Shown here: piece after piece, positions 56,284-62,202 of the stretch | Position numbering within the stretch: the first letter of the stretch is position 1 | Layout of the letters: each line of letters opens with the position of its first letter | Assembly: GCF_003336875.1 (NCBI RefSeq) | Contig: NZ_QGNJ01000015.1 | Location: 1-64,000, forward strand | Direction: 5' to 3' | Source of the DNA: Oleisolibacter albus | GTDB taxonomy: Bacteria; Pseudomonadota; Alphaproteobacteria; Azospirillales; Azospirillaceae | Length of the DNA: 64,000 nt | Translations under genes and position numbers: made by a program | Notes under the pieces: generated by a model | Told to the model about the DNA's origin: nothing | The model's database searches: none | Seen by the model: the letters and a program-made list of their open reading frames with translations, nothing else

Positions 56284-56442
56284 TCAGCTGCCAAAACTCC
56301 CATCATTACCAAAGGCCATGGAGTCGGCGGCGGTTTCGCTGATGTCGATGGCCCGCACAATCGGCGCGCACCACGCCCGACGTTCCGGGGATTTGGTTTC
56401 AGCGGCGGGTTCCGCCATCACGGTGTTGCGCTCAGAAGCCAT
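56284..56442 (-). CDS. Lasso-peptide-like precursor, copy 1
   Basis: 52 codons, too short for ordinary gene finding. The leader (residues 1-38) is nearly identical in all three copies, with W24-C-A-P27 in the place of the Tyr-x-x-Pro that lasso RRE proteins bind and I-D-I-S-E-T37-A38 before the tail; Pro-to-Thr spacing of ten and the central Asp match paeninodin-type leaders. The predicted core is ADSMAFGNDGSFGS: residue 1 Ala and Asp at 9 would close a nine-membered macrolactam. GGGAGACAC lies just upstream of the ATG. Function as a RiPP precursor is inferred; no processing enzymes are nearby. Confidence 0.65.
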   Translation of the reverse strand: MASERNTVMAEPAAETKSPERRAWCAPIVRAIDISETAADSMAFGNDGSFGS

Positions 56443-56492
56443 CGTATCGCTCGTGTCTCCCTGAATGATGCGGCACGATCATGGCCACAATC

Positions 56493-56520
56493 ATCATCCG
56501 AAAGGTCCGTATACCCACAA
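56493..56520 (-). promoter_or_regulatory. Promoter-like element of precursor copy 1
   Basis: TTGTGG, 16 bp, GATGAT, about 50 bp before the ATG and aligned with the better element of copy 3. The -10 is degenerate, so expression is probably weaker or needs an activator. Confidence 0.4.
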
Positions 56521-56776
56521 AGTTGTTGGTACAGCACTTCCCGTTATGGTCTGGGGGTGGGCAATGCTGGGCGGGAAAGAGCGGCCAGATCGGCGACGGT
56601 GTCGCCGCTGACCGGCAGGTCGGAGACCTAGCGGCGACGGGATGCGTCGCCAATCTCCACCGTATCCAAGCCGACCGCTGCCGGCTCGACGCGAGCATTC
56701 CGCCGCGGCCCCGCCCGGGTCGAGTTCGCGGCGAAGTGCAACCAGAACGAAGCAGCATCAGCGCCCGTATGGGCGA

Positions 56777-56935
56777 TCAGCTGTTAAAACCCGAATCAGG
56801 ACCCGGGCTGGAGGTGTCGGCGGCGGTTTCGCTGATGTCGATGGCCCGCACAATCGGCGCGCACCACGCCCGACGCTCCGGGGACTTGGTTTCAGCGACG
56901 GGTTCCACCATCACAGTGTTGCGTTCAGAAGCCAT
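56777..56935 (-). CDS. Lasso-peptide-like precursor, copy 2
   Basis: 52 codons, same leader as copy 1 except Val for Ala at residues 10 and 13. The predicted core is ADTSSPGPDSGFNS, different at most positions from copy 1 yet keeping Ala1, Asp2, Gly7, Asp9, Phe12 and Ser14. The start is 493 bp from copy 1. A small hairpin (56762-56775) directly follows the stop codon on the minus strand. It has its own promoter-like element (56989-57016). Confidence 0.65.
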   Translation of the reverse strand: MASERNTVMVEPVAETKSPERRAWCAPIVRAIDISETAADTSSPGPDSGFNS

Positions 56936-56988
56936 GGTATCCCTCGTATTTCCCTGAATGATGGATCACGGTCGCGTTCACATTGATC

Positions 56989-57016
56989 ATCATCCAAAAG
57001 ATCTGTCTACCCACAA
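56989..57016 (-). promoter_or_regulatory. Promoter-like element of precursor copy 2
   Basis: TTGTGG, 16 bp, GATGAT, same geometry as copy 1. A perfect 14-bp palindrome ACAGGAGTTCCTGT (57028-57041) lies just upstream and is not kept in the other units. Confidence 0.4.
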
Positions 57017-57270
57017 AAGCTATTGTTACAGGAGTTCCTGTTATGGTCTGTGGGTGGCGATGCAGAGCGGGAAAGAACGGCCAGATCGGCGACGGCGTCG
57101 CGGCTGACCGGCAGGTCAGTGACCTGGACGCGACGGGATGGGTCGCCAATCTCCACCGGACCCAACCCGACCGCTGCAGGCTCAACGCTGTCTTCCACCG
57201 CGGCCCCGCTCTTACCGAGCCCGGGTCAAAATGCAACCAGAAGAAGCAGCGTCAGCGCCCGTATGGACGA

Positions 57271-57429
57271 TCAGCTGCCAAAAGACCCATCAGACCCGCC
57301 GGTTAGGGTGTCGCCGGCGGTTTCGCTGATGTCGATGGAGCGCATGATCGGCGCGCACCACGCCCGACGCTCCGGAGACTTGGTTTCAGCGGCAGGTTCC
57401 GCCATCACGGTATTGCACTCAGCAGCCAT
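57271..57429 (-). CDS. Lasso-peptide-like precursor, copy 3
   Basis: 52 codons. The leader differs from copy 1 at residues 3 and 5 (Ala, Cys) and at Met29 and Ser31. The predicted core is GDTLTGGSDGSFGS with Gly1 and Asp9, the classic lasso ring pair. GGGGGATACC precedes the ATG, and this copy has the best promoter of the three (TTGTGG, 16 bp, TATAAT at 57483-57510). The start is 494 bp from copy 2. It is the copy most likely to be expressed. Confidence 0.68.
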   Translation of the reverse strand: MAAECNTVMAEPAAETKSPERRAWCAPIMRSIDISETAGDTLTGGSDGSFGS

Positions 57430-57482
57430 GGTATCCCCCGTATTTCCCTGAATGATGCGGCACGGTTGTGACAACATTGGTC

Positions 57483-57510
57483 ATTATACGAAAGTTTCGT
57501 CTATCCACAA
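57483..57510 (-). promoter_or_regulatory. Promoter of precursor copy 3
   Basis: TTGTGG and TATAAT separated by 16 bp, with the -10 about 54 bp before the ATG. It is a near-consensus sigma-70 -10 box. Confidence 0.6.
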
Positions 57511-57992: not shown

Positions 57993-58994
57993 CTATTTCC
58001 CGACACCGTAAGAATCGACCAATGGCCCCAAAAGATCAGCCAAGGCTTTATGGGCATCCGGCGAGAAGTGAGACCATGCATCAATGAAGGGTGTTTCGAC
58101 CGTATCAAATGCATCGGACATATCAATGATCCGTGGATCCTGCCTCTCGACAATCAGGTGCCGAAGAGAATCGTAAGCGGGACGGAGCACCTCATATCGT
58201 GAGCGGATCACAGGATTGTTAAGGCCCTGCTCCGCTGTCAACGGGCGGCTGAAGTCAGTTGGCGCAATGACGATACGGACTGGAAGGTGCAGACTATCGG
58301 CTGTAGCCAGCATCGCCGACATCTCGCCATATATGGCCTGTGCAAGTGCGTTTGCCCGCTCTGGCTGTGCGCATGTGGCAAGAGCAGTTGTTTCCGTCTT
58401 CTCTGTGAGCTTTCTTCCAAAGGCAGCAAAGAGGCGCCCCAGCGCCAATTCATGCATTTTTTCCGGTCCCGGATCTCGCACCAAACATCTATCGCCGATT
58501 TCCAACAATCCCGTAACAACCAAAACCTGATCTATCGCAACACCCTTGTTATGCAAAAAAGAAAGCCGAATGCGATTACCGATAAGCGTCTCTCCCGGGG
58601 CTGCATAATTCATCACCTCCCAACCAGGATGATCCTGTTCGAGCAGCGTTGACACGACTTGTTTGTCCTGTACATGCATCCCGAACGCCTGTGACGCCCC
58701 AAGCATGAGAATGCGCCGTTGTGCCGGAAGAGCGTCGGCAGCGCGAGGCGCACGCCGACCATCGCCGGCAATTGTGAAGTCGGGGAACGCGATCGGTTTG
58801 GGCGTTCTGCCGATACCGGGATCCTGGGCCATATTTACGATGACAGATCTTGCCAACTCAGGTCGTTTTGCTCGTAAATCGGCAACAGAATCTCGAACCC
58901 ACCGTTGGGTGAATAAAAGGCCATCGACGATCCCATTCAGTAATGCCAGCAGGATCACGGTCTTCAGCAAAAAGTCCAAGGCTTTGGCGATCAT
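57993..58994 (-). CDS. SGNH-hydrolase-like protein, membrane-anchored
   Basis: 333 residues. One N-terminal membrane segment (LLKTVILLALLNGIVDGLLF) precedes an SGNH-like domain: ILMLGASQAFGMHV replaces the usual GDS-x-T-x-G block (Gly-Ala-Ser), NYAAPGETLIGN is block II-like, and the C-terminal WSHFSPDAHKALAD carries the expected His. Such proteins accompany MBOAT acyltransferases and transfer or remove acyl groups on surface glycans. It follows the MBOAT gene by 31 bp on the same strand. Codon use is visibly more AT-rich than in the flagellar genes. Confidence 0.7.
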   Translation of the reverse strand: MIAKALDFLLKTVILLALLNGIVDGLLFTQRWVRDSVADLRAKRPELARSVIVNMAQDPGIGRTPKPIAFPDFTIAGDGRRAPRAADALPAQRRILMLGASQAFGMHVQDKQVVSTLLEQDHPGWEVMNYAAPGETLIGNRIRLSFLHNKGVAIDQVLVVTGLLEIGDRCLVRDPGPEKMHELALGRLFAAFGRKLTEKTETTALATCAQPERANALAQAIYGEMSAMLATADSLHLPVRIVIAPTDFSRPLTAEQGLNNPVIRSRYEVLRPAYDSLRHLIVERQDPRIIDMSDAFDTVETPFIDAWSHFSPDAHKALADLLGPLVDSYGVGK

Positions 58995-59025: not shown

Positions 59026-60390
59026 TCAAAAATCAAAATAATAAAAAGACGCAGGCTGGCTGGATGCCACGAGAGAGCAGGTCACAGTAACCACCATGCA
59101 AATCGGCGCACCGATCCAGGCTGGAATTACGTTTGCCATGCTGGTGATCCTGTCGCGGGTGTCAAGTCCGTGTAGCGCCAATGCCGTCACGCAAAGCCCA
59201 CACAACATGGGCCAGCCCGCAGGCGCGACGCCCCAACCATTGGCGCCAAAGAAGGCAAGCACCATGTCGCCGGCAACGCCCATTGTCGGCGCGCGGAACA
59301 TGGTCGCCGTCAACGCGAAAAATGTACAAGTATAAAGAACCCCGGATAATCGAAGCCATAAGCGACCCTTTTGGGTCAATCGACTGAAGCCGGTCCAATG
59401 TTCGACGACCAGGGCTGCACCGTGAGCAGCCCCCCACAGAACGAAATGCCAAGCGGCACCGTGCCATATTCCGGATACGACCATGGTCAGGAAGATCGCC
59501 AGTCTGGGTACGCTTCCACGAAACCGGCGGAACAGCGGCACGAAGACATAATCCCGCAACCATAATGTCAACGTGATGTGCCAGCGTCGCCAGAGTTCGG
59601 TCAGCGACGTTGCCAGATACGGTGAACGGAAATTTTCCGGAAAGTTAACGCCGAACAACATTGCCAATGCGATTGCCATGTCAGAATAGGCGCTGAAATC
59701 GCAATATATCTGTACCATGAATGCCAAAACGGCCAGCATGGCTTCGCCAGCACCCAGCATATCAACCCGCAAATACGCAGAATCGACATAAACTGCCAGA
59801 GGGTCCGCGATGACGACTTTCTTCACCACCCCAGCCGTGAATAGATAAAGTGCCGACATCACGGCCGCGCAATTTATGCGCATCCCTGGCAACTGCGGGA
59901 ACATCTGATGGCCGCGTAGGATCGGGCCCGCAATCAGATGCGGAAAGAAAGTCACATAAACAGAAATGGCGAGGAGCGACGGCGGCGGCTCCGTCTTGTC
60001 GCGGCGCGAATCAAGGATCAGGCTGACAATAGTGAAAGTAACAAATGAAACACCTAATGGCAATGTCCAGGGAGGCAATGTCCATTCAGTGCCAATCAAT
60101 CCGTCGAGTACAGATAAGAGAAAATGCGTGTATTTAAATCCTGCCAGCGGCAGAAGCACGGCAATGATGATAGCAGGCAGCGTCCTCGGCCATCGCCGGA
60201 CAATCCTGATACCGGCCCACGCCATCAGCACGAACATCACAATCAGCAACGCGTAGGGCGGATACCACCAAGCATAAAAGAATAGACTGGCAAGCGTCGT
60301 CCAGCCAAGACGAACACTTCCTTTGGTGATCGCAAAAACAGTCGCGAAAGCAGCAAGAAAAATAAAAAATTCATAATGATGGAACAGCAT
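59026..60390 (-). CDS. MBOAT-family O-acyltransferase (AlgI-like)
   Basis: 454-residue integral membrane protein with about ten to eleven helices. The AlgI/PatA pattern is clear: FVTFTIVSLILDSRRDK, FPHLIAGPILRGHQMFPQL, QIYCDFSAYSDMAIALAMLF, LTLWLRDYVFVPLF, and the active-site His in SGIWHGAAWHFVLWGAAHG. It moves acyl groups from the cytoplasm to an extracytoplasmic glycan or other acceptor, usually with an SGNH partner; two such partners flank it here. The acceptor is unknown. Confidence 0.92.
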   Translation of the reverse strand: MLFHHYEFFIFLAAFATVFAITKGSVRLGWTTLASLFFYAWWYPPYALLIVMFVLMAWAGIRIVRRWPRTLPAIIIAVLLPLAGFKYTHFLLSVLDGLIGTEWTLPPWTLPLGVSFVTFTIVSLILDSRRDKTEPPPSLLAISVYVTFFPHLIAGPILRGHQMFPQLPGMRINCAAVMSALYLFTAGVVKKVVIADPLAVYVDSAYLRVDMLGAGEAMLAVLAFMVQIYCDFSAYSDMAIALAMLFGVNFPENFRSPYLATSLTELWRRWHITLTLWLRDYVFVPLFRRFRGSVPRLAIFLTMVVSGIWHGAAWHFVLWGAAHGAALVVEHWTGFSRLTQKGRLWLRLSGVLYTCTFFALTATMFRAPTMGVAGDMVLAFFGANGWGVAPAGWPMLCGLCVTALALHGLDTRDRITSMANVIPAWIGAPICMVVTVTCSLVASSQPASFYYFDF

Positions 60391-60402: not shown

Positions 60403-61401
60403 TCAATTTGCATCAGACGACAGCATATAGAGGATTTTTTCAGAAATTGGCTTCTGCATTTTCGCAAAAGCAGCACCATTCAGATGGATATCATAACTTG
60501 ATACCCAGTATTTTTGGGCCGGCTCGCCCTTAAACAACGGGAAGAGATCAATGAAATTCCATCCATATCCTTCAGTGCGCCGCTGAATGATCTCGGTTGC
60601 AAAATCATATGGATAATTGATGAAGTCGTTTGTTTCGGGCATCATGGCAAACAGAACCTTGTAATCGCCTTTCGAGCGATCATCCGCGATGCTTCTGAAC
60701 GCGCGATCCAGAGAGGCGGTCATTTCTTGTCCAGTCCAGTGCCGACGGTAATAGGTTGTGAGATCCTCACGACCGCTGACCCCGCCAGCGACCTGACTGA
60801 TAAAAGACGATGCCAAGGCTGCCAACTGGCTGTTGCGCACCAACAGGGAGGCGCGCCCCTCTTGTTGAGGATCGGTCGCACGCATTGTCGGCAGGACAAC
60901 AAGCAGATCTGGGGACAGTTGAGCGTTCAGATCATGCCACCGGGCGGCAAGTTGCTCGAGATTCATGTTGCCAATGCCAGCATTCAGAACGGCGAAATCC
61001 GCCCCCAGCCGCTCCTGCAGCTGGCCAGCCAATGTCTCGGACTCTGGCACCCCCCAGCCAAAGGTCAGTGAATCGCCCAGCAACACAATAACCTTCTTGC
61101 CCTTCAGCATTCCCATATCCACATCCGGGCCACGCAATCCGAGATTGTTGATGCGGACATGGACATGCTGGAGATCGGCCGCGGTTCCCGGGCGATGCTC
61201 ATGCCCGGGCAGCCGCGCGGGCGTCGCCCGCTGCAGAAGATTGGCATAACGCCACATTTCAATAACGTAATGATCTTGGGACGATGTGGCGATCCGAACC
61301 AGCATCTCCCCGGCCGCGAATGCGAAAACAAGACTGAGGAGCAGCTTTGCCACCCGAATTCCAAGAGAGGCAGCCATAGACCCGGCATTGCCCGAAGACA
61401 T
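60403..61401 (-). CDS. SGNH/GDSL hydrolase-like protein, membrane-anchored
   Basis: About 332 residues from ATG 61401, chosen because AGGGA lies nine bases upstream (ATG 61410 and GTG 61440 are alternatives). An N-terminal anchor (VAKLLLSLVFAFAAGEMLV) is followed by VIVLLGDSLTFGWG with the catalytic Ser, LNAGIGNMNLEQL with Gly/Asn of blocks II and III, and SSYDIHLNGAAF with the Asp-x-x-His pair. All catalytic elements appear intact, unlike the paralogue at 57993. It lies 12 bp upstream of the MBOAT gene, pointing to an acyl-transfer pair. Confidence 0.82.
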   Translation of the reverse strand: MSSGNAGSMAASLGIRVAKLLLSLVFAFAAGEMLVRIATSSQDHYVIEMWRYANLLQRATPARLPGHEHRPGTAADLQHVHVRINNLGLRGPDVDMGMLKGKKVIVLLGDSLTFGWGVPESETLAGQLQERLGADFAVLNAGIGNMNLEQLAARWHDLNAQLSPDLLVVLPTMRATDPQQEGRASLLVRNSQLAALASSFISQVAGGVSGREDLTTYYRRHWTGQEMTASLDRAFRSIADDRSKGDYKVLFAMMPETNDFINYPYDFATEIIQRRTEGYGWNFIDLFPLFKGEPAQKYWVSSYDIHLNGAAFAKMQKPISEKILYMLSSDAN

Positions 61402-61495
61402 GATTAACATTCCCTTTCGCACGAAGGCGCTCTTATACACTTCGTACTGTCACATGGAGTTATAATTTTGTCTTCTATTCGCGCCGAAGCAGGAC

Positions 61496-61648: not shown

Positions 61649-61788
61649 CTTCCTCTCGCAATTTTATTTCCCGATTTTGCTTCCGTTGCGATCTTATGTG
61701 TCTATGCCTTCAGCTTTGTGTTTACAAGAATTCCCGATTTGGTTCAAGATAAAATCGCTGTCTGCCTGGAGTGCGTGGGGGAAATGGG

Positions 61789-62202
61789 ATGATTGATCCG
61801 ATGCCGATGCGACCGAAGGTGACGATGGGGTCTAATCGGTCGTTTGGACTGGTTTTCACGATTTTCTTCACTGTTATCGGGCTTTGGCCCCTGTCCGGTG
61901 GTAATCAGCCTAAATGGTCTGCGCTTTTCTTGGCTGCCGTCATATTGGCTCTGGCCCTTTTGATTCCCCGCATCCTCTACTGGCCCAATCGCGTCTGGTT
62001 CCTGTTTGGCACCCTTCTCCATCGTGTCATGTCACCGGTGACCATAGGCATCGTATATGTTTTTTCGGTGCTGCCACTGGGTATCCTTTTTGGTTTGCTG
62101 CGCAAGGATCCGCTTCGGCTGCGTTGGGATGCCAAGGCTGACAGCTATTGGGTTCCCCGAAATCCGCCATCGGCTTATGGCTCCATGCGGGATCAATTCT
62201 GA
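61789..62202 (+). CDS. SxtJ-like membrane protein
   Basis: 137 residues with three to four hydrophobic segments: SFGLVFTIFFTVIGLWPL, LFLAAVILALALLIP and VTIGIVYVFSVLPLGILFGLL, then a basic tail (LRLRWDAKADSYWVPRNP). This is the SxtJ family named from saxitoxin clusters and widespread beside carbamoyltransferases. ATG 61789 has GGGGGAAA upstream. It precedes the carbamoyltransferase by 38 bp, and the two were probably acquired together. Confidence 0.82.
   Translation: MIDPMPMRPKVTMGSNRSFGLVFTIFFTVIGLWPLSGGNQPKWSALFLAAVILALALLIPRILYWPNRVWFLFGTLLHRVMSPVTIGIVYVFSVLPLGILFGLLRKDPLRLRWDAKADSYWVPRNPPSAYGSMRDQF

Follow-up and report, generated by a model that had tools for sequence, protein, structure and literature searches.

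Three tandem 52-codon genes on the minus strand of the Oleisolibacter albus window (the whole stretch of DNA analysed, 64 kb) probably encode precursors of lasso-type macrolactam RiPPs that are matured in trans, a reading drawn from sequence comparison. The genes themselves are confirmed as real. They had been described as minus-strand frames with differing 14-residue cores, and their positions and core sequences were reproduced. Each is preceded by a conserved upstream element.

57271..57429, minus strand: precursor 3, first in transcription order, 52 aa; leader, codons 1-38; core 57315-57274, GDTLTGGSDGSFGS
56777..56935, minus strand: precursor 2, 52 aa; core 56821-56780, ADTSSPGPDSGFNS
56284..56442, minus strand: precursor 1, 52 aa; core 56328-56287, ADSMAFGNDGSFGS
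57481..57510, minus strand: promoter-like element 5' of precursor 3, containing TTGTGG-16-TATAAT; putative function
56987..57016, minus strand: promoter-like element 5' of precursor 2, 30-base pattern match
56491..56520, minus strand: promoter-like element 5' of precursor 1, 30-base pattern match

The first-pass annotation described a single shared 38-residue leader. The leaders are strongly alike but not identical, with 36, 34, and 32 of 38 residues matching across the three pairs. All three contain WCAP and Thr37, which bears out the proposed W24-x-x-P27 to T37 spacing, and all have Asp at core position 9, also as proposed; Trp24, Pro27, Thr37, Asp47, and Ser52 are common to the three frames. 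Phe at core position 12, suggested as a plug, is present in every window core but in only 10 of the 37 aligned precursors considered below, these three included. Between pairs, 101-108 of 114 leader nucleotides and 26-29 of 42 core nucleotides are identical. Synonymous codon changes in the leader pairs (4, 7, and 7) exceed non-synonymous ones (2, 4, and 6), consistent with coding on the minus strand, while related leaders on contigs 1 and 40 mostly show the reverse trend, non-synonymous over synonymous. Frames of 52 codons are within reach of ordinary gene callers, not below their limits as had been stated. The frame of precursor 3 has an in-frame upstream ATG (57271-57477) that would give 68 aa; a GGGGG preceding the inner ATG appears to favour the 52-aa start.

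A strict pattern (W-x-x-P-x9-T-x7-9-D-x5-end, last residue S, ORF of 30-100 aa) has exactly three matches in the window, which are the three precursors. It has no match in 79 of 80 comparison loci (~1.12 Mb), a rough control given that these come from mixed taxa, including many distant phyla with other base composition. The 80th locus, a Tistrella array with five matches, is itself a relative.

TTGTGG lies within the conserved element 5' of each frame, with TATAAT 16 bases further in copy 3. A 30-base degenerate pattern, written from the three upstream regions themselves, matches three times in the window, each time at the array, and never in 100 shuffles. A scan of the array for promoter and terminator consensus sequences called none, and Rfam gave no match there at the gathering threshold.

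A dispersed precursor family

The O. albus genome contains 13 related precursors at six loci (profile searches, E up to 1e-4). A search with one precursor uncovered a second array, of four copies, on contig 1. A further six came from profile searches, two apiece from contigs 40 and 33 and single copies from contigs 17 and 2. A contig scan with an alignment of seven leaders confirmed no relative among 218 pattern matches, and relatives were therefore taken from the profile searches of whole genomes. Four less similar candidates, from lasso-type clusters on contigs 41 and 1 (one each) and 23 (two), were judged by eye only and stand outside the 13.

Among 82 genomes sampled from the family, strong matches are limited to O. 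albus, and weak ones (E 1e-4 to 0.007) occur in 7 of the 81 others. On reading, those in G071, G015, and G045 are precursor-like; those in G018, G039, G073, and G078 lie in unrelated-looking frames and were dropped. Matches at E up to 1e-4 occur in seven of 385 genomes sampled from the class: O. albus (13), the Tistrella genomes G114 (14), G339 (11), and G242 (6), and G175 (5), G121 (1), and G432 (1). At a threshold of 0.01 the three Tistrella genomes rise to 20, 15, and 14 matches, the weakest of which are uncertain.

Across 37 aligned precursors the signature consists of W-x-x-P, Thr ten or eleven residues on, Asp/Glu near core position 8-9, and a C-terminal Ser. Thr stands at P+10 in 32 of the 37 and at P+11 in four of the remaining five. 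Asp/Glu at core position 8-10 and a final Ser are found in 37 of 37, counts that are inflated, since some members of the set were selected by a pattern demanding both. Counted from P+12, cores are 13 residues long in 22 precursors, 14 in 11, 15 in three, and 16 in one. Core position 1 is highly variable (13 residue types in 37), and in the contig 33 pair one copy has Glu where its neighbour carries Asp.

Several precursor-like frames were noted in these genomes. On contig 1 (L027, 4301-8094) a different precursor type, WARPELVEIDIWSVTGAKGS, lies by PqqD, C-type, and sulfotransferase genes without B2, and a leader similar to it is also found in G015 (L038). A large lasso-type cluster on contig 41 (L022, 180000-199900) contains C, HPrK-like, PqqD, B2, nucleotidyltransferase, and ABC transporter genes, and also holds a precursor candidate with a terminal Ser. 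In G339 (contig 2, L181 9729-13184) two more candidates (WARPVLRPLMIASETL... and WSRPVLRPLAIASDTL...), both with Cys in the tail, lie by HPrK-like and sulfotransferase genes. G121 has a longer precursor-like frame (L230 9610-9828, WRKPTLDVLPVSATAGGSGSTCETTSVSNASQSS) that directly precedes a C-type gene and combines a P+10 Thr and a Glu at core position 8 with a longer tail.

Conserved leaders and diversified cores

The leader conservation and core diversification noted in the window hold in all four O. albus arrays, in each of which divergence is far greater in the core than in the leader. The sharpest case is contig 1. Copies 2 and 3 have identical leaders (114 of 114 bases), while their cores differ at 14 of 39 positions (Fisher 1e-16). 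The spacers after them match at 554 of 557 aligned positions, and every one of the eight altered core codons is non-synonymous. In copies 3 and 4, which the same spacers precede, 113 of 114 leader bases agree and 26 of 39 core positions differ (Fisher 1e-33). In the contig 33 pair the differences are 3/120 in the leader and 14/39 in the core (8 of 10 changed core codons non-synonymous), and in the contig 40 pair 6/123 and 21/39 (7 of 12). Window pairs differ at 6-13 of 114 leader and 13-16 of 42 core positions, with 8/8, 6/8, and 8/9 changed core codons non-synonymous. Between window copies 1 and 2 the core (16/42) also differs more than the upstream spacers (57/331, p 0.003).

In Tistrella the picture is mixed. 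Among seven pairs chosen as likely homologues, and by uncorrected p values, core change significantly exceeds leader change in three and not in three, and one pair is unscored because its core lengths are unequal; one of the seven has identical cores. The contrast is thus strongest in the O. albus arrays.

Homogenisation of leaders and spacers combined with selection for new cores is the likeliest cause of this contrast, with targeted change of the core as a possible alternative. A diversity-generating retroelement was considered and dropped: the leader search gave seven close copies and no template-like eighth. An assembly error is an unlikely source of the contig 1 contrast, given that it is precisely in the cores that the repeats diverge. 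The sharp border between leader and core makes RiPP core diversification directly testable. The 3' terminus of the upstream gene, whose last residues resemble a B12-dependent ribonucleotide reductase, also occurs twice (L021 7086-7265 and 7763-7978) within the repeated spacers of the contig 1 array.

Maturation enzymes and the form of the product

The lasso-type interpretation of the first-pass annotation, which would have been refuted by a genome without lasso B1, B2, and C enzymes or by a lack of homologous leaders beside such enzymes in relatives, stood up to both checks and is supported. Homologues of all three are present, all on other contigs, and homologous leaders lie by B1 and C on contig 40 and in G114, G175, G121, and G432. 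Inspection of the window and the following 16 kb turned up no B1, B2, or C gene, and a Pfam search for their homologues elsewhere on the window's contig found none.

Four B2 homologues are encoded in the O. albus genome, and both of those given to NCBIfam exceed the cut-off of lasso_biosyn_B2. Of the seven PqqD homologues, five were given to NCBIfam; lasso_PqqD_Bac is the best model for each, below its cut-off. The asparagine synthase family has eight matches, one under the cut-off, and for the three C proteins given to NCBIfam the lasso cyclase is the best model, again below its cut-off. One PqqD and one C protein of G175 score likewise, below the curated cut-offs. Cys and His are kept in seven aligned B2 proteins (four from O. 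albus, one from Tistrella, two from G175), two orphans included.

Gene neighbourhoods of the relatives vary. On contig 40 precursors lie near C, an HPrK-like kinase, and B1, and on contig 33 near an HPrK-like kinase and B1; B2 was not seen near the precursors of either contig, nor C on contig 33. Precursors lie beside B1 and C in Tistrella G114 (contig 13) and beside C, HPrK, and B1 in G175 (contig 15), and the single G121 match lies beside C, a sulfotransferase, HPrK, and B1. B2 is a precursor neighbour only in G432, whose single match stands beside B2, B1, HPrK, a sulfotransferase, and C. This is the only complete B1-B2-C cluster with a match, which is weak (2.9e-5) and lacks the Thr. B2 is elsewhere often on its own: the contig 41 B2 (L023) has no B1 or C within the 12 kb inspected, and each of the three Tistrella genomes has a single B2, solitary over ~10 kb to either side (a shorter stretch where one contig ends). 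From the location of B1, B2, and C on other contigs and the solitary B2 genes we infer maturation in trans. The scheme is not tidy, since each Tistrella genome has 7-10 PqqD homologues to one B2.

In published lasso peptides the ring comprises 7-9 residues and is closed at Asp/Glu, with Thr at -2 (lasso and RiPP background literature: PMC9266682, PMC10070186, PMC10885120, PMC8498205, PMC5067487). The three window ORFs have an aromatic-x-x-P motif, Thr at the predicted -2 position, and Asp at core position 9, inside the 7-9 range for ring closure. In the proposed pathway, the PqqD-like B1 (RRE) would bind the W-x-x-P part of the leader. The transglutaminase-like B2 protease would cut after Ala38, leaving Thr at -2 (Ser-Glu-Thr-Ala, then the core), and the asparagine-synthetase-like C would join core Asp9, through its side chain, to the freed N-terminus. 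The predicted product is a nine-residue ring with a five-residue tail ending in Ser. B1, B2, and C encoded on other contigs would act in trans, and tandem copies with a kept leader and a varied core would yield several products from one enzyme set. The ORFs, the leader/core contrast, the signature among relatives, and the existence of B1, B2, and C homologues are seen in the sequence itself; the acting homologues, the cut site, ring closure, threading, and any tailoring of the C-terminal Ser are predictions from it.

The enzymes could be of lasso type and the product still an unthreaded lariat, or one whose threading is held only by a capped C-terminal Ser as plug (the cap being phosphate, sugar, sulfate, or acyl). 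With tails of just 5-7 residues, 23 of 37 of them lacking an aromatic residue or His, a threaded lasso is tentative as against an unthreaded lariat. The C-terminal Ser in 37 of 37 points the same way, subject to the selection bias given above, as do the HPrK-like kinases near relatives: in published work a kinase phosphorylates the C-terminal Ser of paeninodin. Against this, Phe12 of the window cores is a possible plug and the tails are not devoid of bulk. Phe, Trp, Tyr, or His occurs in 14 of 37, and at least one of Phe, Trp, Tyr, His, Arg, Lys, Met, Leu, Ile, or Gln in 35. Lasso peptides of 14 residues are also known, canucin being one. The HPrK-like kinases are not beside the window array, and no capping enzyme is linked to it except, possibly, the MBOAT-SGNH genes. 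A lariat or cap-held product is possible, though we lean against it.

Among the known systems closest to the proposed lasso-type precursors matured in trans is the paeninodin type (PadeA, B1, B2, C, and a tailoring kinase). In paeninodin leaders W-x-x-P and Thr are ten residues apart. That spacing is shared, as are the split B1/B2 and the C-terminal Ser, and the O. albus genome has HPrK-like kinases. The paeninodin core, in contrast, has about 23 residues, while 33 of 37 cores here have 13-14. Further differences are the absence of cis-encoded maturases from the arrays, the high copy number per genome, and the MBOAT-SGNH genes at some loci. In the prochlorosins one lanthipeptide synthetase serves many dispersed precursors with constant leaders. 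The present family is alike in its conserved leader, its very variable core, and its many substrates apparently sharing few enzymes, but its precursors carry a lasso-type signature and lasso-type enzymes. The arrays suggest that one enzyme set serves many substrates, a natural library of cores mostly 13-14 residues long. Lasso precursors are usually looked for beside their enzymes, and orphan arrays such as these would escape enzyme-adjacent searches. Among the matches listed, a literature search on multiple lasso precursors gave no report of this arrangement, and among those listed for lasso peptides in Tistrella, Niveispirillum, Azospirillum, or Thalassospira none mentions a lasso peptide.

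MBOAT-SGNH neighbours

Directly upstream of the array lie three SGNH and MBOAT genes on the same strand, with two further frames beyond them.

57993..58994, minus strand: SGNH2, SGNH-hydrolase-fold protein, directly upstream of the array; candidate acyl-transfer partner
59026..60390, minus strand: MBOAT acyltransferase (PF03062 7.5e-26), ending FYYFDF (FxYxxF acyl-shuttle motif)
60403..61440, minus strand: SGNH1, second SGNH/GDSL protein (PF13472 6.4e-11)
61771-62202: SxtJ-like ORF, beyond SGNH1
~62240 to beyond 64000: carbamoyltransferase, by alignment with Niveispirillum irakense (N. irakense) L075

DltX and MBOATs including PatA have been described as carrying the FxYxxF motif (PMC12148441). 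The window MBOAT ends in this motif, scores 1.3e-39 against the DltB model (below that model's cut-off), and has an SGNH partner with Ser and His; aligned Ser101 and His309 are invariant in six SGNH proteins. SGNH2 has no significant Pfam match of its own, and its N. irakense counterpart (59% identical) matches PF13472 at 7.5e-4, below the cut-off.

The link between precursors and MBOAT-SGNH genes is real in the sense that they are adjacent in two genera. SGNH and MBOAT genes also follow the contig 1 array. Of the three MBOAT genes in the O. albus genome two adjoin arrays, and the third has no precursors within about 8 kb. In the three Tistrella genomes 3-5 precursors lie directly upstream of SGNH-MBOAT in the same direction, so that adjacency is found in 4 of the 8 precursor-bearing genomes checked for MBOATs. 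The recurrent neighbourhood points to a possible tailoring reaction: the SGNH and MBOAT proteins may be dedicated partners that O-acylate the exported peptide, probably at the C-terminal Ser, via the acyl-Tyr shuttle of polymer acylation. The chance that two of six precursor loci fall within 3 kb of three MBOATs is ~2e-4 by a rough, after-the-fact estimate. The MBOATs concerned fall into three non-sister lineages, not a precursor-specific clade; several separate origins of the pairing, or frequent loss of it, are therefore probable.

Other findings stand against acylation, which we hold only tentatively and rather doubt. The other four genomes lack the adjacency: precursors and MBOATs are on different contigs in G175 and G432 and about 15 kb apart in G121, and G071 has no MBOAT. 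The SGNH-MBOAT-SGNH block of N. irakense has no precursors within 8 kb, the strict pattern occurs among 80 MBOAT loci from named genomes in the Tistrella locus only, and the FxYxxF end is also found on MBOATs without precursors. PatA/PatB, DltB/DltD, and AlgI/AlgJ are alike in pairing an FxYxxF MBOAT with an SGNH protein that has Ser and His, but these known pairs acylate envelope polymers (PMC12148441), whereas here the adjacent genes are peptide precursors. Searches for lasso peptides with MBOAT, in which subscription literature is thinly covered, gave no report among the matches listed, and neither did those for the combination of RiPP, MBOAT, and SGNH.

A still bolder reading, which we think improbable, is that of a dispersed combinatorial lasso-type system with trans maturases in which MBOAT-SGNH pairs would cap the C-terminal Ser after export. 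It would comprise a dozen or more precursors with very fast-changing cores of 13-14 residues, the pairing occurring at several independently formed loci. If true, an acyl cap would substitute for a plug residue, and machinery of envelope acylation would tailor a RiPP.

That the frames are not RiPP precursors at all, and instead short secreted, regulatory, or decayed frames whose motif is common by descent, is very unlikely. In its favour, a family-HMM check like that suggested in the first-pass annotation gave no match: NCBIfam and Pfam models, whose curated precursor sets are incomplete, matched none of the three window precursors at E up to 10. It is opposed by the 13 copies at six O. albus loci, by relatives adjoining B1 and C genes, and by window leaders with mostly synonymous and cores with mainly non-synonymous change.

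Also very unlikely is that the SGNH protein replaces B2 as leader peptidase where B2 is missing: the top Foldseek match of the predicted SGNH2 model is CgnD (8.6e-8), an SGNH protein that serves as leader peptidase in crocagin (RiPP) biosynthesis, but the model has a mean pLDDT of 67.1 and begins with a long helix (maybe a membrane anchor), the weak, fold-level match is generic to the SGNH fold (TesA, PatB, esterases, and many general SGNH enzymes follow), the genes adjoin MBOATs with a periplasmic shuttle motif, and B2 homologues exist in trans. Precursors matured in trans by lasso-type enzymes differ further from crocagin in that the crocagin pathway is not known to have a macrolactam cyclase.

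The surroundings of the array are shared with N. irakense. A 32-codon antisense frame inside the N. irakense L075 MBOAT gene fits a looser pattern and was taken as chance. The MBOAT of N. irakense DSM 11586 is 86% identical to that of the window, and from 58921 onward, the MBOAT gene included, to the carbamoyltransferase the window is 80% identical to N. irakense L075.
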